This document shows, in pieces, positions 44,221 through 63,485 of a stretch of 64,000 nt of DNA (the first letter of the stretch is position 1; each line of letters opens with the position of its first letter). A program made the position numbers and the translations under genes. The stretch covers positions 1 through 64,000 of the forward strand of contig JADGJC010000036.1 of assembly GCA_027596075.1 (NCBI GenBank). The letters are read 5' to 3'. The stretch comes from Rhizophlyctis rosea (Eukaryota > Chytridiomycota > Chytridiomycetes > Rhizophlyctidales > Rhizophlyctidaceae). A model generated the notes under the pieces. The model ran no database searches, had not been told where the DNA came from, and worked only from the letters and a program-made list of their open reading frames with translations.

Positions 44221-44973
44221 TCATCCTGGCCAAAACCGCAATCTACACTTTCCTCGGGAAAGCGGTAAACACACGAGACCGAACTGCCGCGCGACATGAC
44301 CACACAACGGACACCCAGCATCAGGACGCTCGCTCATATGCCCATCGATACAATCATAACAAAACGTATGCCCACACCCAACAGTTCCCAAATCCTCTGC
44401 ATTCACCAACTGCCTATGCTGACAAATCTGGCAAACTCCGCAATCCGTCCGATGGTGACCAAGAACTTCCGCTTCGATAATCAAGCTTCTCCAAGTAGCG
44501 ATCCCGGTGCTGAACCGTTCGTAGTAGATTGATTCAGCAGGTGTGGTGCTCCAAGCGGCTTCGCGACGGATTATGCCACCGTTTTCGGCGTTGCGGACGC
44601 CGGAGAAGCGGAAGCGGCATTGGAGGAAGCCGACGCGGGTAGGGCGGAAGGGATCTTGGCAGGAGGGACATTTTGAGGATTTTGTGTCGGCAAGGGTGTA
44701 GGTCTGGAAGCCGCGTTGATGCACGACCTGCGAAAGTAGAATCATTGGCTGTCTATCCAGAGGTGATGACCATCTGATGGTAGGGGAGGGGCTGCGACAT
44801 CCGATTATACTCACCAACTGCCGGCTTCTCCCTGCCGGACAAGACTCGTTTTCACAGAAGCCTTCCAGGTTGATTCCGGGCCCAACGGTCGTCCACTCTG
44901 CCTTCCCAAGCTTGCAGTTGCGAACTCGGATGGTGGTACTGCCTTGGAATAGGTCGACGAATTCGACTTTCAT
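44221..44973 (-). CDS. RING-finger protein, ubiquitin-less paralogue of the Ub-RING gene
   Basis: Two exons, 44973-44815 and 44727-44221, give 221 aa. The intron (TTG|GTGAGT to CGCAG|GTCGTG) is phase 0 at the same place as in the 48793-50031 paralogue. The start MKVEFVDLFQGST aligns with the point directly after the ubiquitin LRGG of the paralogue (DFVDLTRGS). This copy therefore begins where the ubiquitin ends. A first Cys module (INLEGFCENESCPAGR), a second (SKCPSCQDPFRP, LQCRFRFSGVR), a conserved block (YYERFSTGIATWRSLIIEAE) and a C3HC4 RING (CQIC, CGHTFCYDCID, CPLC) follow. A RING E3 ubiquitin ligase is the natural inference. The short tail after the RING is unique. The frame stays open upstream but without an ATG. 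Confidence 0.8.
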   Translation of the reverse strand: MKVEFVDLFQGSTTIRVRNCKLGKAEWTTVGPGINLEGFCENESCPAGRSRQLVSIIGCRSPSPTIRWSSPLDRQPMILLSQVVHQRGFQTYTLADTKSSKCPSCQDPFRPTRVGFLQCRFRFSGVRNAENGGIIRREAAWSTTPAESIYYERFSTGIATWRSLIIEAEVLGHHRTDCGVCQICQHRQLVNAEDLGTVGCGHTFCYDCIDGHMSERPDAGCPLCGHVARQFGLVCLPLSRGKCRLRFWPG

Positions 44974-45727
44974 ATTTGGAGTCCTGTCGTAGGTGTTGCC
45001 CAATCTTGGCGGTTGTCGTAAAGGTTGATATTGTTACTAAGGTCGAAGGCCACTAACAGAGCAAATTGAAGAGAGTTGCAAGTCTCATCATAACATTGGT
45101 TGGGGATAGAGTGATATGCAAGATAGTCCGGTTGCAGCAGTCACTGCCCCGCAGACACAAGGAGGCGCGACTTGCTGCACAGATTTTCCTATGGGCGAAT
45201 TTGGCGAACCATGCGCGTATTACGTGTCTCGGATGGGTCCCCGGGCCACCGTTTTGTTTCAGCAGGCAGTGGTGGCAAATGGAATTTGTTTCCATCAACT
45301 CCATCACAGCCCCGATTTTTGAAAGGTGGAGCAGCAAGAGAGGCGTCTAAAGAGCTTAGCATCCAGAATGGCACAAATTACCATGATGCATGATCATCAA
45401 CGCTACCCGATGAATTCCACTTGCAATCATGGTTTGCCTGAAATGATTTTAACGTGCATATATCAAATTGGCTATGGGTGACAGGGGAACACGTTATCGC
45501 TTGCCCGCCACTCACCCACAGGAGCTCACAGGCTCCTCCCCACTGTTTCAATCCATGATTGAGATTTAGTATCACATTAGACAATACTACAAGGCCCTCC
45601 GCAGGTTGAGTTTTTCGGAAAGGAAGTGGAAGGTATGGTCAAACCAATGATACGCACAAACGGCTTGGACCAATGAAGTTTCCAAATCAAGCTAAATTGA
45701 TTCCAATCGAATGAAATCAGGAACCCA
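44974..45727. other. Intergenic spacer
   Basis: About 750 bp between the RING gene's 5' end and the 3' end of the mucin-like membrane protein gene. Short overlapping frames on both strands show no motif. Nothing supportable beyond a presumed promoter for the RING gene. Confidence 0.45.
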
Positions 45728-48792: not shown

Positions 48793-50031
48793 CTACACCC
48801 CACGACAACACGGACACCCCATCTCCGGCTGATACGTCTTCCAATCCCTGACACACGTGAAGCAGAAGAGATGGTCGCAAGTGACGGCCTCCAAATCCCC
48901 CGCGACATGAAGTGGTTTGAAACACATGCCACAGCAATCATCGAAGCTCCATTCGGGTTCGCCGCGCCTTTCGACCTCGATTATGAGGCGGTCCCATTTG
49001 GCGGTTCCGGCGGAGGCGGTGGAGAAGCGTTGGTATTGTTTTGCGGGAGGTAGGACGGTCCAGGAGGATTCGACGTATTCCCGGCGGTGGGAGGAGGGGT
49101 TTTGTTTGATGCCGTAGAATTTGTATTGGCAGTCGTAGAATCCGCATTGGGTTGGTGTGAAGGGGGTGTGGCATTCGGGGCATTTGCATTCGGAGCGGTG
49201 GTGGAGGAGGTCGAATTTGTGGAGGCCGTAGGGGTGTATGACCTGGTTTTTGGGAATCCAAAAAAAGGTTGACGTCAGATATGGATGTGAAATGCGCTGG
49301 TTTTCCCACACCCAAAGTGCGGGCGCTTGGCACGTTGCATAACTCACCAGCTCATTCTTGCGGCCGGCGGGGCAATCAACGTTCTCGCACCGCCCTTCCA
49401 AGTTGAGTCCCCGAATTGCGCTCCTCCATCGCGGTGCCGTAGGGTCCCAGCCGACAGTGATGCTGCCTCGAGTGAGGTCGACGAAGTCGCCCCCTCCTCC
49501 CCTCAACCGCAGCACCATGTGTAGAGTCGACCCACCATGAATGTTGTAGAAACTCAAAGCTCTGCCATCTTCCAACTGCTTCCCAGCATAGATGAGCCGC
49601 TGCTGGTCGGGGTGAACGCCTTCTTTGTCTTGGATGAGATCCTTTAGATCCGCAGTCGTACCGCCCGATTTGAAAGGCAAGATCAGGCGTTTCCCCGTCA
49701 AAGTCCTCACGTAGATTTCTGACGCTGAGTTCGGCTGGATTTTGCCGAGCCAGATGGTGTGGAAGGCCTTGAGGTACTCATAGTCGGTAAGGGAGTCGTT
49801 GTCCTTCATTTTGCGGGCTGCTTGGCTGGTTGGGATGGCGAGGTCGAATTCGGAGAAGGTGGGGTCCAGTATCTTCTGGGAGATTTCGGTTGGCACTCCG
49901 TCGGCGAGGAGGGTGCGTATGATTGTTTTGACGGCTTTGATGGTTTTGGTGTCGCTGGGGTATGTGAGCACCAACTGGTGGGGTTGGTCGGTCCAAGGGA
50001 GTTTGGGGAATAGGACGGTGATGGTAGGCAT
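48793..50031 (-). CDS. Ubiquitin-RING fusion protein (putative E3 ligase with built-in ubiquitin)
   Basis: Two exons, 50031-49348 and 49242-48793, give 377 aa. The intron (CTG|GTGAGT to AACCAG|GTCATA) is phase 0 with no in-frame stop. Residues 1-95 look like a degenerate ubiquitin-like domain ([10 protein letters not shown], ending [17 protein letters not shown]). Residues about 104-179 are near-canonical ubiquitin: [49 protein letters not shown]. The Ile44 patch and the Lys11, Lys33 and Lys48 equivalents are kept; Lys63 is Gly. LRGG is followed by [11 protein letters not shown], so the ubiquitin is internal. Cys-rich modules ([32 protein letters not shown]) and a C-terminal C3HC4 RING ([21 protein letters not shown]) complete it. 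It is divergent from the MYND gene at 50766. Function inferred: E3 ligase, possibly processed or autoinhibited through its ubiquitin. Confidence 0.85.
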
Positions 50032-50765
50032 TGCTATTTTGAGGTTTGATGATGATGGACTACCATTCTACTGAGTTCTTTCTTTTACTGTGCTTTGCTT
50101 GAATTTTGTTACGGAAAGTGGTGGATGATGAAGGGCGTTTCAGCAAGTATGAGCGTATGAAGCGTATGATGGTCTGCGATGATGGACCCTGTTACTCCTG
50201 GTTGGGGCAGGGAAAGTGACGGTGATTACAGTGATTGGCACACCTGGATCATACACCTTTTGCATGCGAGTACCTGGAGTGGCGCAAGTGCATTGCCCCT
50301 TTCATTATTTGGAGGACCCTTGATAGTTGAAACTAGTTGATGCAGCATACTCAGCATGACGGGGTAAGAGGCTGCCTGGCTGCATGAGTGGCGAGGACTG
50401 CGAGGTGGCGCGCCACCAAGTTCATCTAGTCGAGTGGGAGGGACACTGGCAAATGAATGAATGGTGACTGAACCTCACGCCTTGTTGAGTCTGCTGCGCT
50501 TTGCATGCTTTGCATATGACAACAAGGGTGGGGCGGGACCACCCCCCTCTAAGGTACTGTTCAATATTGGCAACCGATCCACGTCCTGATGCTTGGAGGC
50601 AAATTGTGCATGATGAGTATGATGAGTCGACTATTCTGCAAATTACATTGCAAAACTGCGAGTCGAGTATTGGCTTGATTGGATACCATATAAGCGGCCA
50701 GTTGCTGCTGTTCACAGTGTTCAGTTTACACCACACAGTTCGTTGCACCCGTGGCGTAGCAACCA
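50032..50765. promoter_or_regulatory. Divergent intergenic region between Ub-RING and MYND genes
   Basis: About 735 bp separates the two diverging start codons. On the plus strand ACCATATAAGCGGCC near 50687-50701 resembles a TATA box about 70 bp upstream of the first MYND ATG. The arrangement would allow co-regulation of the pair, which is inference. Confidence 0.45.
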
Positions 50766-52078
50766 ATGCCTGGCACGGTGGCACTGCGTCGGAACAGTAT
50801 GCCCAAATTTGGTGAAACAAGTTCAACGACGCAAGGGGATATCGAAGGTCCCGCCATTTGCCCCTTGCCCTTTCCCACACTCCCATCAGCCCATCTGCAG
50901 TGCGTTCACAACGTGATGCTCATTGCGCCGTTTTCATCACGTCCGTGGGCGCTTCTACACGTCCGTTCCTACGTTCCTCCAGATGCGTGGACTGGTCCCT
51001 TCCCACTCGCTTCGCTTCCACCTCCTTTGGTGGAGGAGATCATCGCCCAAGCCAATTCTCTCACGTGGTGCCCCAAAACTCAAAGATACCGATCTTTCCG
51101 CCCACCTCCCACCATATCCAAATGGTGGTACTCAAACTGGCAACGCTCCGTCTTCCGTGAGATCGACAAAAACGAGTACACCTTGAAGAAATTCTTGATG
51201 ATGCTGTCGAACAACCCGCACGTGGCCTACTACATCGAGAAAGCAACTTTCCTTCCAGTTGTGATGTCTGGTAATCTGAACACCGAGACCGACCCCAACA
51301 GGAAGCTCAACGATTGGATGTTGACGACAGCAGTTCATCTCAAGAACATGAACAGCTTGAGGACTTTGACTATCGGTACCAGGACTTCTTGGGGTCATTT
51401 GTCCTTTACGACGCTCGCGCTCATCTTGCAAAGCTTCCGTCCACCCTCAGGGACGTGACCATTCTTGGAGAGTTCACCGACGTATCCCTGGACAACGACA
51501 CCGCTCCCCACCTCTGTCCAATCCTCGCTCGTGCCGTCCGAAATGTACAAAAGCTCTACATCCACCTGCCCTTCCTCTGCTGCGCATTCTTCACGTCCGC
51601 CGACCTCTTCCCCAACATGGAAGACATCTTTGTCCACGTCCAAAACGGGTGCTGGGACAACTGCGACTCGATAAAGCAATGGCGGGAGGGACTGGTGCGT
51701 TCAAAAACCGGATGGAATGACTTCAGGGAGACAGGTCTGAACAACCGGCACAAGATGCCGAAAATGAAGCGTTTCGAGATGGCGGATCAGAATGATTTGG
51801 ATGGGCCGCAGGAAAACTACTTGGATGGGATGGCGAGCTATGATGGAGGCCGCACGTGGGAACGACAGGCGGAGCCACGACCCTGCGAATTGTGCCAGCA
51901 GGTCACACTCAAACTCTGTCGCTGCCGCTCGGCATACTTCTGCAGATCACAATGCCGGAACAGGGCTTGGAAAGATCACAAGGCGGAGCACATCGCGCTG
52001 TGCAGGGCTCGTGGTGATCCGGAACCCATTGGTGCTGAGATGAGTGATTGGGATGATGGATTGCCGGATTGGATGTAG
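50766..52078 (+). pseudogene. LRR-like MYND-finger protein (copy B), frame disrupted
   Basis: The first ATG (50766) lies just downstream of a TATA-like element. The frame runs through FRPPPTISKWWYSNWQRSVF, KKFLMMLSNNPHVAYYIEKA, VHLKNMNSLRTLTIG and FTTLALILQS, then hits a TGA at 51456-51458. Homology to copy A continues without a gap in another frame (LPSTLRDVTIL, PHLCPILARAVRNVQKLYIHL, to the stop at 52078). A single-base shift is needed near 51433, and no intron can be placed there. The C-terminal MYND finger reads CELC, then LKLCRCRSAYFC, RSQC, KDHK, so the second Cys pair is C-x-C instead of the usual C-x2-C. The acidic tail SDWDDGLPDWM is intact. It is either a young pseudogene, a sequencing error or, less likely, a frameshifting gene. 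Confidence 0.65.
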
Positions 52079-54135: not shown

Positions 54136-57100
54136 ATGCTCTCACGATGGCGAAAAAAGTCCGAGAAAAAGGATGGCAATAGCACAGGACAGAGATCGCA
54201 CGATCATACACCTCACCCAGACCTCCTTGCACCTGCCCCTCTCTCTCTGCTAACACCACCTCCCTCCCCATCCACCAAAACGCGGTCAAAGTCGTCCCCG
54301 ATCATACCCTCATTTCTGTCATCACCGTCTCCCTCCCCGAGTCCCACACCGCGGTCTTCAGCACCGTCGAAAGCCCAGCAGCGCCAGCTACAGGAGTTGA
54401 AGAGTATTTTGTATGAGGGGGCGCGGCAGTGTAAGAATTTGTCAGTCGAGTCGAAGAAGGGAAGTCGGAAGATCACGTTTGCAGAGTTGAAGATTTTGAG
54501 GGGGAGTTTGGAGTATAGGCATATTGTTCCTCAAGTATGAATCAAACACCATAGTCGTGTCATGTCCGTCTCATTGGATTGACATTTCAATATTTCTACA
54601 TGCCTGTTGATGCTGCCCAGTCGTCTAGTGTCCGAATCTTCCTCAGTTCTACGTTCACTGATACACAGCTGGAGCGCAACCTCCTCATTCGAGATGGGTA
54701 CCCGATCCTGACGGAGGTTTGCCGGATTTTGGGATGGGATTTTGAGGTGGTTGATATGTATGTTGAAAATTTTGAAGGCTGATGGGAGACCACACTAGTT
54801 AACGTCAACGAACGATGAGTGTGGTGTTGTTTACTAACAGACCGATCGGAACAGGCGATGGGGTATCCCGGATCATCAAGTCCACAGTAACGCTACAGAG
54901 GACATATGTCTTACGGAAATTGAAAGATGCTTCAAAGTCTCTGCCGGTCCAGCTTTCGTTAGCATATTGGGTACGTGAATGTGTGCCAATGAGCAGAGAA
55001 AGGCAGGTCCCTGCGCTATATATATAGTTGACTTCTCAAAACACCACCTCAGGAAACAAATACGGCTACCGCCCCATCCCATCCAAAATCCCCTCCCCCG
55101 AATTCACCCAACTCCTCCAATCCATCGATCCCCTCCGCGGCGGCGATCTCAATTTCCTTAAAAGCGCTTACCAATTAGATGAGAACAACGTCCCGCCGGT
55201 GTATGTGTTAAGACCAGCATACGCAGACAACATATCTGAAGAGGAAAAGGAGAAACAATTGGATGTGTGGAATAAGAAGTTTGTCCCGACTGTGCAGCGG
55301 ATTTTGTGGGCTGCGACGGAAGAGGTGTTGGGACAGGAACAGAGCAGTCGGTATACGGCGAGTATCACGCATAAGGAGGTGGAGTTGGGGTTGCTTTTGA
55401 GTGCGACGTGTGGGGGGTCGAAGAGGTTTTATTGTTTGCAGTTGAGTTTTGTCTTGCTATTTTGTCTTTTTGGAACGTCACCTGGCAGGGTGGGTATTCC
55501 TTACCCTTAATATATGAATCATCCTTCATCACCAGCCGCGAACTCGACGACATCGACGAAGTTCCCGTTGAAGATCTCCCACCAAAAGATGTCTCCACCC
55601 TTTCACGCTACGTCGACATCACCCAAAAATCCAAAGACGACTACGCGGAATTCCTCCTCCGCCAACTCAAAAGACGCGTCACATACGACGCTCAATACGT
55701 CGTTCCATTCTCCCACTCCTCCATCCCCTCTTGGGAACCCTCACCATCCGACCCCCTTCTATTCGCAAATGCCGATTACATAGAACATGCTGAGCAGTTC
55801 GTGCGGGAGGTTGTGGAGCTGATTGCGCAGGGCATTTTAGATGCATATGAGCATCGTGTTATCATGGGTGGAGAGCGGGATCCGGTGTTTGAGGAGGTTG
55901 TGAGGCATGCGAGGGTTGCGAGGGAGAGGATTGAGGGTGTTGCGGGGAGTGGGAGGGAAGAGGTTGTGGCGGATGTTGTGAAGTGGGTTAGGAGGGAGGT
56001 TGGGGATGGGGAGAAGCCTTTTTTGATTACTGGTGAGCGGTTTTTGATGTTTGGCTTAGAATGAAACTTTCAATAATCTTGTGCGATGCCTTTAGCACCT
56101 TCTGGATACGGAAAAGCAGACGTGATAGCGAAAACAATTCAACAACTGTCCACTTCCCGTCCATCCATGGCGGTTGTGTACCGCTTCATTGGCTCCACAG
56201 CAGAATCAGCAGACCCAGAACGCTTGATACAATCGCTTTGCCGGCAGATTGGAAGAATCTATGGCGATGAGCGGTGGGAAGCGCCCGGAGTTTTCGATGA
56301 AGAAGATCTAGCGGAGAACTTCCGCAGAGCGTTGAAGATGAGTCATATTGATTTGAAGTTGGTGGTTTTACTGGACTCGATACATCAGTTGGGGGAGGCT
56401 GCGGATTTGTTTTGGTAAGTAGAGGTGTGAGTTTGGACAAGGTTTTTCCGGGTTGGGGTTCCTGACCAGCCCTATAGGATACCGGAAAACGTTCCACCAC
56501 ATACCACACTAATTTTGACAACCAACGACCTTTCGCACTCCGCCGAAACACTCTCCTTCCGTCTTTCCGCGGACACGGACAACACTCTCACCCTCCCGCC
56601 TCTCACCGAAGCGGACATCACCGCCATGCTGACAACCCTCCAATCAAAATCCAACCGCACCCTCACACCCGCCCAACGCACTCTCTTCATCCAAAAATGT
56701 CTCAAAGAACGTTCCCCGCTTTTCGTCCAAGGCCTCTGGGGCTCGTTCAAGAAACTTCGGGGTGTTGTAGATGCAGAAATGCTGGCTCCACTTGTGCCGG
56801 ATGAGCTGGCGGCGATCGCGGTGGTGAGGATGATGGATGTGGAGAGCTTGTTCGGGAAGGAGATTGTGACGTGGGTTTTGGGTGTTTTTACGGCGTGTGA
56901 GAGGAGGGGGATTAGTGATAGGGAGATTTTGGAAGTTTTGGGGGGGATGGAGGGGGTTTTGGATGCTGTTTTCAAGGTTTATGTTAGGGCGTTGTCGGAG
57001 TTGATGCGTTTTTGCATGTTTAGGAATGCGTTTTGGGCTGGTGTTTGTCATGTGATTAATCGTCGTAATCTTTTTTTGGTGATATAGTATTGGAGTGAAC

Positions 57101-60100
57101 CGCTCCGCCGATTTCCTATCGTCATTTGGATCCGCATCAAGGATACTTTGAAAGAATACATTGTGGAACGTAGTGATGGAGGGGCTGTGAAGTATTTTTG
57201 GTGTCATGCGCAGGTGAGTTTTTGGGTTTTGCTTTGAGGTTTGCCATAATGCTTCACATTCATTCCTGCTGTAGTTCCGAGAATGGGCTGTCAAGAAATA
57301 CCTCCCCCACCATGAAGACCCCTGCAGCCTCTCCACACACCGAACAACAATCATCCATTCCGCCCTCGCCACCTACTTTGCGACCGGATCCCTCCCGAAA
57401 CTTCCCACGCAGTACCGGACAGATGCCACCACTCAACTTCACCTGGCGGAATGGTTTTCCTTGGGTATCTCCCAATTTTCCACGTCAATGGACCCCACGT
57501 CCAAACCCGGCGGCGGCCTAGCAGACATAGACGCGCACTTCTATTGGGCGCGGCAGAGCGCAAGTAACGGCAACGCTGACGGGATGGCGCTTCTGGGAAT
57601 TTGTTACAAATACGAAATCGGAACGGAGGAAAACCATCAACAAGCCGCAAAGTGGTTCAGCAAATCCGCCAATATGGGCTCAAATACCGGCGAGTTTTGG
57701 ATGGGTCTGTCATTTTTTGAAGGTGAAGGCGTCCGGAAAGATTCGAAGCAGGCGTGTATGTGGTTTGAGAAGGCTGTGCGAGGAGGGAATCCCAATGCAA
57801 TGATGTGGTTGGGCTTGGCATATGAGAATGGGAATGGAGTGAGGGAGGATAAGAAAAGGGCGGTGGAGTTGTTCACTACGGCTGCTGGGATGGGGCAGAC
57901 AATGGCGCAGTATATGCTGGGATGTGCCTACCGGGAGGGATCTGGTGTTGCTAAGGACGTGAAACGAGCATTCGGGTTATGGAAGAGGGCCGCCATGAAG
58001 GGTGATGCAATGTCGCAAATGGCGCTTGGACGGGCCTATTTCAACGGGACGGATGTTGAGAGGGATGTGGAACGCGCTATCATGTGGTTCCGGCAAGCTG
58101 CGGAGGGAGAGGATGAGGAGGGTGCGATTGCGTTGACGCAAGCGTATGCAGCGGTTGGCAAAGGGGACAAGAATGCAAAACGGGGCGCAATATGGACGAA
58201 ACGTGCTGCGGAAGCTGGGAATTCGGAAGCCATTGTGGCGTTGAGTCATTTGCAATCACAGGGACTGGGAGTGGAGAAGGATCCTGCGAAGTCAATCGCT
58301 ATGTTGTTGCCGGAAGCTGAGAAGGGGAATGTCCAAGCACAGTGTAATCTGGGGGTGCATTATTTTGAGGGTAGCGGTGTACCACAGGATTATGCGAAGG
58401 CGAAAATGTGGTTTGAGAGAGCGGCCACCGGTCCTGTTGAGAAGCGATCGGCGATGGCTATGCATGCGTTGGGAGTGATATATCATAGGGGTTGGGGAGT
58501 GGAGAGGGATGATAGGGTGGCGATCAAATATTTTCAGGAGGCGGCGGACAAGGGTGGTAAAGAAGGACAATTCAATGTTGGATTTTTCTACACTCAAGGC
58601 TTGGGTGGGTTGCAGAAGGACGAGAAGAAAGGTGCTGATTGGTATCAGAAGGCTGCGGAGCAGGTGAGATTCTTTTGTTCAGCTATGAGTTGTCCGAAAC
58701 GTGCACGTAACCTTCATTCACATTGACAGGGTTTGGCTGCCGCCCAATATTCGTACGGAAATTGCTTCTACAACGGTCGCGGCCGACCCTTGGACCGAGC
58801 CATTGCCGCAATGTGGTTCCGCAAGTCTGCAGAGGGTGGCAATGCAAATGGTCAAAACAACTACGGAGTTTGCCTTCGTGAAGGGCATGGCGTCCCAGCC
58901 GATCAATTCGCGGCTGTTGAATGGTTCCGCAAAGCTGCGGAACAAGGTGATCTCTCCGGAATGTCGCAATATGCAGCCCATCTTCGCGATGGGCGAGGAG
59001 TGCCCAAAGATCTGGAGGCTTCGGCGGAGCTGTTTTTGAAGTGTGCGGAGGCTGGCGATGCATTGAGCCAGTTCAATGTTGCATGTTTGTTGATGAAGGG
59101 GGATGTGTTGGAGCAGGATAAGGGGAAGGCTGTTTACTGGTGCCGGAAGGCAGCAGAGCAGGGGCAAGCTCATGCCATGAATAACTTGGGGAATTATTTG
59201 AGAGAAGGGAAAGGAATTGAGAAGGATGAAGTTGAAGCTTTCAAGTGGACCATGAAGTCAGCTGAGAAGGGCATTGCGGTGGCGATGTCGACCATCGCAG
59301 ATTGTTACAGAGATGGCGTTGGAGTGGGAAAAGACCGTGCACAGGCGATAAAATGGTATAAAGAAGCTGTCACCAAAGGTCATGTTCCCTCTTTGACTAA
59401 ATTGGTAAGTGGCGTTGAACTTCACATGCCATCTGCACCGCATCACATGATCATCTCACTTCACATTGTCATATCTCTAGGCCCAATTGGTAGGAGCGGA
59501 GCATTTACTGGAGCCAACAACTACCACGGCACCCTCTTTGCCACCTCCTTACACACCCACCCCATTAGAAGCTGACGCAGAGTCTGGTGACCCTGTTGCA
59601 CAATACAATCTGGCTCTTCGCTTGTCCCGTGGGGAAGATGGATATACCAAAAATGAGCGAAAAGCGTTTGAGCTCATGCTCAAGAGTGCCACGACGGGTT
59701 TGGTGCAAGCCAAGTCTGCAGTGGGAATGATGTACATGGAAGGGATGGGTTGTGAGAGAAACTTGCAGGAGGCGGCCAAGTGGCATTCCAAGGCTGCCGA
59801 AGGTGGGATCCTAGAGTCGCAAAACACGTTGGTGAGTTGTTGCGTCATTTTCTCCTCTCCTGGGCATCGTAGTTGACGTCCATCTTGTATCCGTTGCAGG
59901 GCATCATGTATAATAAAGGACTTGGTGTACCACGCAACGAAAAAGAAGCGTTCAAATGGGTGCACGCGGCCGCATCCAAAGGACATTTAGGTGCCATGGC
60001 AAATCTTGGCACGTTCTACTGTGAGGGCTGCGGAGTGCCGCCGGATAACGAGATGGCTGCTGTTTGGTTCCGTCAAGCTGCCGACGAGGGAAATGCTCAA

Positions 60101-61373: not shown

Positions 61374-63485
61374 ATGATACGTGAACTGTTTCTATTCTTT
61401 GTGATTTTGGCCGTTTGGGCAGCAGTCGCAGGTATGGGCTCATAGGGACGTTCTCGAGCCGGATGCTTTGGAGAGCATTGAATGCTGATCAAGTGCTTCC
61501 TCCATTGAAGATGCTGCCTCTTCGAAAGTTGTGAAAAAGGTCGTGAAGGTGGTTCATGTCGTTGGAGAAGGCCGCCAATGCGGCTCTCACCACAACAATG
61601 CAATCTGTGCCAAAGGCTTGTGCTGCAGGTGAGAATATCTCGCACTCGACATTGTTTACCTCGCTTCCTTCTGTTTCTTGTTCTGACATCCGTTCCTTCT
61701 CCGTTCAAGCATCTATGGGTACTGCGGTAAGACGCAAAAGTAAGTACAATGTGTCGGTTGGTATGCATTGGTCTCAGTCTCTTATGTTGCCATATTAAGC
61801 CATTGCGGGGCCGGAAAGTGCCAGAGCAAGTATGGTCAATGCGGTCTGTACGCCACCCTGACAACCACAACGACCAAGTACCAGAAGCCTACCACAACGA
61901 AAAAGATCACCACAACTAAATACCAAAAGCCTACTACTACCACTACCACCACCAAATACCCAAAACCGACTACCTTGAAACCTACTACAACCAAGTACCA
62001 AAAACCCACTACTTCCAAGACCACTGTAAGAGATAGCATCTCCTCGCAACCATATTGCAAAGACGTCAGTTGATGATTCCCTCACTTTTTCCTTGACAGA
62101 CGCCCACCAGCACCACAACCACTACCACCACAACGACCACCACCACCACCACCACAACTTCCACCCCCACTACCACTCCCAGCTCTACAACTACCACTAC
62201 AACTTCCACCATACCCACCACAATGCCGAGTTCTACCACCACAACAACCACTACTACAAGCACTTCATCTCCCACTCCGTGAGGACATACATGAGCAAAC
62301 TTCCATCACACCTCATTGGTTCGTTCCAACCCGCTTTCTCTTCCGCAGCAACGTCTTCCCCTTCTGCGAAGACACATACGGCACATGCAGTACTGAATCA
62401 ACCGCTACCAACGTCTGTGGAGCCAATGCATCGTGCAACACGTATAAACTATGCCAATGTAATGCTGGATTGAAGGGGGAGAATGCGTTTAGGGTGAGTG
62501 ATGTTCTCAATCTACGGTTACGAATTTGAAGCTTATATTGCCGATTGTTGCTTGGGTTGTGATGTTTGTTTGTTCATTTACCATCATCACCAGGTCCACA
62601 ACTACACCGCCACATCCGCCACAACCGACATGAACGTCTACGTCCCTCTCGGTATCGGATGCGACGTCTCTTGCACCGCCAACCCATGCGATGAAACCGA
62701 GATTCCCCGCACTTGCGACACTAAACCCGATAACTGCTTCCCTGGGTACGCTACGTTGATGATGCATGACGGTGAGGTGTACATGCGGGATGTGAAGGTT
62801 GGGGATGTTGTTGAAGTCATAGGGAAAGATGGAAAGAAGATATGGGATGAGGTTGTATATGTGTACAGGAGTAAGCGGAGGAGTGGGGTGTTTAGTGTTT
62901 TGGAGTATGTTGGGGAGGGTGGGGAGGTAAGCAGAAAGGAGATCCCTTCCGTCTTTGATATGAGTTGCGACTGACGAGACATTTCCAGCGTGGCGAGTTC
63001 CACCTTACACCCTCGCACGTCCTTCCCGTCTCTACTACCGCCACTTCTCCTCGTTCCTTCATGCAAGCTAAGGACGTACTCCGTCATACCTACATCCACC
63101 ACATCTCTCACGGACCCGTTCTGGTAACCGGTATCTCCCAACGTCTCATCAAGAATGCCGGGCAATACGCTCCCATCACACGTACTGCCAGTTCGCTGCT
63201 CATTGTGGATGGTATCATTGCCTCGCCTTGGGCCGTTGATCACGATTGGGTATGTGTTTATCCTCGCATGATAATCACTACCTTCCACCCTCATTGATAT
63301 TGTGCTTCCTTTTTCCAAAGTTGGAACTCCTCATGGGTCCCATTGCCCGCAGTGCATATGCCATTCTCAAGCCGATGAACTTACACTTCACGGTCCTTAA
63401 CTCTGACTGGATCGCCTACGTCAACGACTTGATCGGTCCTAGCATCATGCGTGCCATCCAGTTTGCCCCTTTCGCCAAGGCTTGA
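61374..63485 (+). CDS. Secreted chitin-binding (hevein/CBM18) - EGF-like - Hedgehog-type Hint autoprocessing protein
   Basis: Nine exons fit in phase: 61374-61431, 61511-61628, 61710-61739, 61800-62025, 62100-62278, 62349-62493, 62594-62926, 62989-63249 and 63321-63485, giving 504 aa. The signal peptide is MIRELFLFFVILAVWAAVA. A CBM18/hevein domain is assembled from four exons: GRQCGSHHNNAICAKGLCCS, IYGYCGKTQ, NHCGAGKCQSKYGQC. A Thr/Lys-rich linker with TTKYQKP repeats and a poly-Thr/Ser mucin-like stretch follow. Then comes an EGF-like Cys module (FCEDTYGTCST, VCGANASCNTYKLCQCNAG). The Hint domain begins at Cys300 (NCFPGYATLMMHDGEVYM), with MRDVKVGDVVEVIG and catalytic T-x-x-H (LTPSHVLPV, Thr370/His373). 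The Cys-Thr spacing matches Hedgehog. It continues with YAPITRTASSLLIVDGIIAS and a tail LELLMGPIARSAYAIL. The Asp that Hedgehog needs for cholesterol transfer appears replaced (VYVYRSK). Predicted: wall-directed and self-cleaving before Cys300. Confidence 0.9.

Follow-up and report, generated by a model that had tools for sequence, protein, structure and literature searches.

A predicted secreted protein that joins a chitin-binding CBM18 to a Hedgehog-type Hint domain in the chytrid Rhizophlyctis rosea

Hog domains have been described in many protists, mosses, red algae and Glomus, where they follow N-terminal parts that are unrelated to one another (Bürglin, 2008; PMC2362128). According to the same survey, the Cys of motif J is replaced by Ser, Thr or Asp in Hog proteins of mosses, red algae and some alveolates (PMC2362128). 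For the animal domains, the consequences of replacing residue D46 (D303 in the fly) have been described: the fly variant D303A, which corresponds to D46A, retains cleavage by DTT and does not mediate full cholesteroylation, and DTT cleavage is more efficient in D303A, D303N, D303R and D303E (PMC9163320). A preprint reports that D46A abolishes the activity on cholesterol of the fly, human, frog and zebrafish domains and that, in the frog and zebrafish domains, cholesterolysis is blocked while DTT thiolysis becomes 2-6 fold faster (PMC13060885). The nearest described architecture to the protein considered here is that of the choanoflagellate protein Hoglet, and judging by its sequence the chytrid protein looks to be built like it.

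The gene in the window and its public relatives

The analysed stretch of DNA, termed the window, comprises 64,000 nucleotides (positions 1 to 64,000) of contig JADGJC010000036.1 of Rhizophlyctis rosea. On its plus strand, a gene at 61374-63485 was rebuilt from the sequence as nine exons (1515 nt including the stop codon, 504 aa). The eight introns measure 60-100 nt, preserve the frame and have GT-AG ends in 8/8 cases, and residue 300 is a Cys, which reproduces the nine-exon model of the initial annotation. Its features are as follows:

61374..61431, plus strand: exon 1, signal-peptide-like start, aa 1-19 (spliced model, hydrophobicity)
61511..61628, plus strand: exon 2, KVV-rich basic/hydrophobic stretch, then first half of CBM18 (spliced model, Pfam)
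61710..61739, plus strand: exon 3, middle of CBM18, IYGYCGKTQ (spliced model, Pfam)
61800..62025, plus strand: exon 4, end of CBM18 (Cys 71, 76, 83), then Thr-rich linker with KY(Q/P)KP repeats
62100..62278, plus strand: exon 5, Thr-rich linker (spliced model)
62349..62493, plus strand: exon 6, N-terminal part of the 10-Cys module (spliced model, alignment; no Pfam match)
62594..62926, plus strand: exon 7, remainder of the 10-Cys module, predicted scissile bond N299-C300, N-terminal half of Hint
62989..63249, plus strand: exon 8, C-terminal half of Hint with T370-P-S-H373 and the motif-J equivalent ASPWAV with Pro443
63321..63485, plus strand: exon 9, the 54 aa that follow Hint as a C-terminal tail (possibly SRR/ARR-like) and the stop

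The 15-mers of highest hydrophobicity begin at aa 4-6, and a putative AxA-type site lies at about aa 19-21, spanning the join of exons 1 and 2. By hydrophobicity, the N-terminus is signal-peptide-like, as expected for the signal peptide that had been proposed. A profile search that failed to detect Hint had been named as evidence against the fusion; in the spliced protein, Pfam places PF01079 (Hint) at aa 296-470 with 56.6 bits (cut-off 29.7, E 3.4e-15) and PF00187 (Chitin_bind_1, CBM18) at aa 42-83 with 38.4 bits (cut-off 27.8, E 1.5e-9), so that both domain calls were borne out. Besides these two, Pfam lists only SH3_2 at E of 1 or lower, and this match is sub-threshold; up to the same value neither other Hint-type families nor the Hedge domain (HH_signal) are matched, and NCBIfam gives 1 family far under its cut-off. 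When the exons are read singly from the genome, without splicing, Hint reaches only 23.4 bits, under the cut-off, and no CBM18 match is listed here.

The CBM18 carries the eight Cys of the earlier description (positions 43, 52, 57, 58, 64, 71, 76 and 83), and its best solved relative is lectin-C (1ulk, E 1.9e-16). The binding site of hevein consists of a Ser and three aromatic residues. At these positions the chytrid domain has S59, Y61, Y63 and, at the third aromatic position, H70, as in two of the lectin-C repeats. The subsequent linker (aa 85-203, 119 residues) is Thr-rich as described, with 58% Thr, and the KY(Q/P)KP repeat occurs in it four times (aa 95, 109, 121 and 134). The module between the linker and Hint had been read as EGF-like, an assignment that was not sustained: it contains ten Cys, finds no match in Pfam even with E allowed up to 1, and is referred to here as the 10-Cys module.

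Searches of 5.8 billion proteins, confined to sequences within a length window that have 5-residue words in common with the query, listed four relatives (P0001-P0004), each under the name Rhizophlyctis rosea; no further one was listed with E allowed up to 10. These word- and length-limited searches list no animal Hedgehog either, hence they do not show that the fusion is absent from other fungi. P0002 (HK097_004645, 619 aa) comprises a signal-like start, CBM18, a YxKP/Thr linker, the 10-Cys module, Cys1 and TPTH; it was annotated independently and has the same domain order, linker type and 18+1 Cys layout as the window protein. The fusion claimed for a chytrid thus recurs in a second R. rosea record. 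P0003 (HDV00_010022), whose matching locus is on contig C517 (13,595 bases, against 16,331 for the contig given for P0003), joins CBM18 to the same C-terminal part. Compared with that of the window protein, the C-terminal part is 50-56% identical in P0002 and 45-49% in P0003, and Hint is not listed by Pfam at E<=0.1 for either of them. P0001 (HDV00_012448) has a Hint match of 43.6 bits, over the cut-off, and no CBM18, while P0004 is a partial protein with a Hint match of 24.0 bits, under the cut-off. Scans of viral and prokaryote contigs gave 76 and 42 pattern matches, 0 of them confirmed, and among the matches listed from the open-licence literature no description of a CBM18-Hint fusion was found.

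Ahead of Hint residue 1, there are 18 Cys (8+10) in the window protein and P0002 and 10 in P0001, and none of the three has a Cys after it. The even number of Cys in the payload and the lone Cys at Hint position 1 fit the need for a disulfide-bonded payload next to a thiol catalyst. As annotated, P0003 has 24 Cys ahead of the Hint start and none after it, a misfit to the 18-Cys plan; it was left out of this count because its gene model reads the linker in another frame.

Several other genes were observed around this locus. Just upstream, a Sel1-repeat gene (57275-59572, plus strand) shows Sel1 stretches in two adjacent frames, 8 in one and 5 in the other; ahead of it, at 55028-57087, the one frame scanned matches no Pfam family with E of 0.001 or lower. 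Further upstream are a marginal MYND finger (51275-52078, plus strand; 22.2 bits, cut-off 22.7), a ubiquitin domain (48793-50067, minus strand; E 4.3e-22) with a sub-threshold RING finger at the C-terminus of the protein, and a RING protein (44221-45033, minus strand). Downstream, the other strand encodes an alpha/beta hydrolase, and beyond the window the same contig (C290 in the genome searches) carries an NPHP3_N-type NTPase fragment (71237-71887, plus strand, L030:7237-7887; E 1e-26). No tie of the Sel1, alpha/beta hydrolase and NPHP3_N neighbours to the CBM18-Hint gene was seen.

Catalytic residues and predicted cleavage

The Hint domain has C300 and the block T370, P371, S372 and H373, in agreement with the Hedgehog Cys and T-x-x-H initially assigned to it, and C300 is the sole Cys in this part of the protein. 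Cys1 is kept in P0001 and P0002 and is Phe in P0003/C517; P0004 does not cover this position. The TxxH block is kept in the window protein, P0001, P0002, P0004 and the DNA of C517, and is missing from annotated P0003, the gene model of which skips it. The residue before Cys1 is Asn in the window protein and P0001 and Val in P0002, compared with Gly in Hedgehog. When a profile of the family was compared with the PDB, human SHH and Drosophila Hh chains were the top four of 14 matches (E 2e-4 to 0.05, only one below 1e-3), and 0 of the 14 were inteins. This places the chytrid Hint nearest to Hedgehog and not to inteins, an affinity that is weak in absolute terms. The same search with the Hint part as a single sequence gave 3 chance-level matches (E 0.1 to 0.77), with no Hint protein among them, and the AlphaFold model of P0001, which is aligned with P0002-P0004, is too poor for use (mean pLDDT 34.5).

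Two features of the Hedgehog type differ. Depending on the MAFFT setting, the column equivalent to D46 is occupied by Y/L/F, S/A/P or R/K, with D, E or H in 0/3 readings; the column itself is uncertain, as the chytrid sequences move by one residue between settings, and SHH is badly aligned downstream in the setting that yields R/K. Another side chain could act as the base. At motif J, 5/5 sequences read SPW(A/G) in place of the Cys-containing SCYA, so that the Cys is replaced by Pro. Given that no D46 equivalent was found and that motif J has a Pro, plain hydrolysis or ligation to a non-cholesterol acceptor must be considered. By analogy with the D46 variants, the chytrid domain should readily form the thioester and hand it over to an acceptor other than cholesterol, or do so by another route.

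The reading favoured here, which we hold to be reasonably probable, is that of a secreted, autocleaving Hog-type protein whose chitin-binding payload would be released by thioester chemistry other than the standard cholesterol transfer. From the observed anatomy, conservation and residues, we infer a path of secretion, disulfide formation and cleavage, with a predicted nucleophile and location. The precursor would enter the secretory path, form disulfides in CBM18 and the 10-Cys module, and dock on chitin through CBM18, which would be carried by a Thr-rich, perhaps O-mannosylated stalk. Hint would then convert the N299-C300 peptide bond into a thioester, using C300 with T370/H373, and a nucleophile would split the payload, namely CBM18, the Thr-rich YxKP linker and the 10-Cys module, from the Hint part. 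This nucleophile is probably not cholesterol activated via the usual D46 base; water or a thiol could serve instead, as could a different lipid or a molecule of the wall. The Hint part would be shed and the payload would remain on chitin, with its C-terminus left as a free acid or esterified, either to a lipid or to the wall. The roles in wall assembly or encystment suggested earlier would be conjectural. A bolder version, which we rate as improbable, takes the thioester as a transfer step outside animals: the C-terminus of the chitin-docked payload would leave C300 and be attached to a polysaccharide or protein of the wall, through a hydroxyl or amine of that acceptor, amounting to a self-contained sortase-like wall anchor in which the loss of D46 would reflect the change of acceptor.

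The foremost alternative, which appears unlikely, is that the domain still ligates lipids and joins the payload to a sterol or another lipid, with a different general base and with the tail acting as an adduct-recognition region. A tail of 54 aa does follow Hint and aligns across the family, and the family profile extends past motif J of human SHH into the first part of the SRR; this overlap is weak, with a domain E-value far >1. A sterol or similar adduct has also been proposed for the ancestral Hog protein in the survey cited above (Bürglin, 2008; PMC2362128). Against lipid ligation stand the missing D46 equivalent and the Pro at motif J, as well as the loss of cholesterol activity on D46A replacement in all four animal domains of the preprint (PMC13060885).

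Concerning further Hedgehog-related components, a search of the genome for HH_signal was empty, but its controls were equally silent and the result is therefore uninformative. Two loci for Vint, the VWA-associated Hint-like family, are over the cut-off (C502:79018-79485 and C102:69537-70016). The Patched family gives 2 matches on one contig; Patched-type proteins are no evidence of Hedgehog signalling.

Copies in the same genome and constraint

The last 300 residues of the window protein give 16 matches on six contigs of its own genome, the window contig included. Apart from the window gene, there are a CBM18 copy on contig C517, a copy on C624 that lacks this domain, and three loci that are partial. 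Where P0001 aligns with C624 (residues 1-45 and 150-462 of the protein), it is encoded there with no mismatch outside introns, the Thr-rich part in between being masked. No CBM18 match lies beside its Hint gene on the same strand, and separate CBM18 matches occur on the opposite strand; upstream of the Hint gene, the sequence may encode a KVV stretch and a signal-like exon (MMRKLLLLCALLVTLLAIHA), the latter left unused by the public gene model. The introns of the Hint region at GE/xGEF and HDx/xE have the same place and phase in the window gene and C624. The genome search for CBM18 gave at least 21 matches, among which that of C517 alone sits on a contig of the Hint list; this search is not exhaustive because the intron-split CBM18 of the window itself was missed. 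With the N-terminal 84 residues as the query, 24 matches were found, mostly other CBM18 loci.

Over 297 C-terminal codons, the window gene and C624 differ with pS 0.66 and pN 0.31 (107, 82 and 163 changes at codon positions 1, 2 and 3), and comparison with C517 gave pS 0.71 and pN 0.35 over 293 codons and pS 0.81 and pN 0.26 over 59 codons of the N-terminal part; with synonymous sites near saturation, these values show protein-level constraint and no more. They bear on a further alternative, namely that the gene family is decaying and that Hint has lost, or is losing, its catalytic activity, with at most its fold being maintained. Barring an assembly error, C517 has the appearance of a failing copy: it has a Phe codon at the expected Cys1 (L026:3181), its Thr/YQKP linker and CBM18 are in different frames, and no AG stands just before the TPSH block. 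In C217, the Cys module runs into the second half of Hint and the first half is missing, a loss internal to the gene; C253 begins at a contig end and has an in-frame stop inside, and C605 matches in the tail only. However, Cys1 and TxxH are kept in the window copy, C624/P0001 and P0002, the excess of synonymous change between the window gene and C624 argues against decay of these copies, and C253 is also cut by the contig end, which puts its Cys1 beyond reach. A dead domain in the window protein seems rather doubtful.

That the gene of a CBM18 lectin was wrongly joined to an independent Hint gene next to it is scarcely credible: among the matches listed by the word- and length-limited searches there is no near-identical public protein, but P0002 and P0003, annotated by others, link CBM18 to the same C-terminal part and share the N-terminus, the linker type and Cys plan are common to P0002 and the window protein, and a CBM18 match would fall by chance within 2 kb of a given place with a probability of ~0.002 (from 21 CBM18 matches, a lower bound). 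CBM18 and Hint in the window are very probably encoded by one gene.

Comparison with known systems

The combination of CBM18 with a Hint domain that apparently lacks the cholesterol-attaching residue suggests an older or different use of the cutting chemistry at the fungal wall. For the role of Hog before Hedgehog, a fungal protein with a definable chitin-binding payload, and with a Hint domain in which the base for cholesterol was not found, offers a testable case for the thioester nucleophile. Additionally, the pairing of a polysaccharide-binding domain, a Thr-rich stalk and Hog in both a choanoflagellate and a chytrid would point to an early or recurrent use in matrix or wall proteins.

Animal Hedgehog (Hint plus SRR) shares with the window protein Cys1, TxxH, the Hint profile, a two-part precursor and a signal-like start; in the window protein, by contrast, there is no Hedge domain, no D46 equivalent was found, the motif-J Cys is replaced and the tail is weakly SRR-like. 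Among fungi, GmGIN1 of Glomus mosseae is likewise described as a protein with a Hog domain, but its N-terminal part is AIG1-type GTPase-like and has no signal peptide, and its motifs J and K are good, whereas the motif-J Cys is Pro here (PMC2362128). Hevein-type CBM18 is also found in the chytrid Batrachochytrium dendrobatidis, in groups described as tyrosinase-like, deacetylase-like and lectin-like, and the word 'Hint' occurs 0 times in the text of that study (PMC3569864). Hoglet of Monosiga ovata, compared by its published description only, combines a polysaccharide-binding N-terminal domain, a long Thr-rich stretch and a Hog domain, as does the window protein; its N-terminal domain is similar to cellulose-binding domains, whereas that of the window protein is a hevein-type CBM18, and in the window protein a 10-Cys module precedes Hint (PMC2362128). 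Taken on its predicted sequence, the window protein is a CBM18-Hog architecture that fails two Hedgehog-type features, and it is no Hedgehog ligand.
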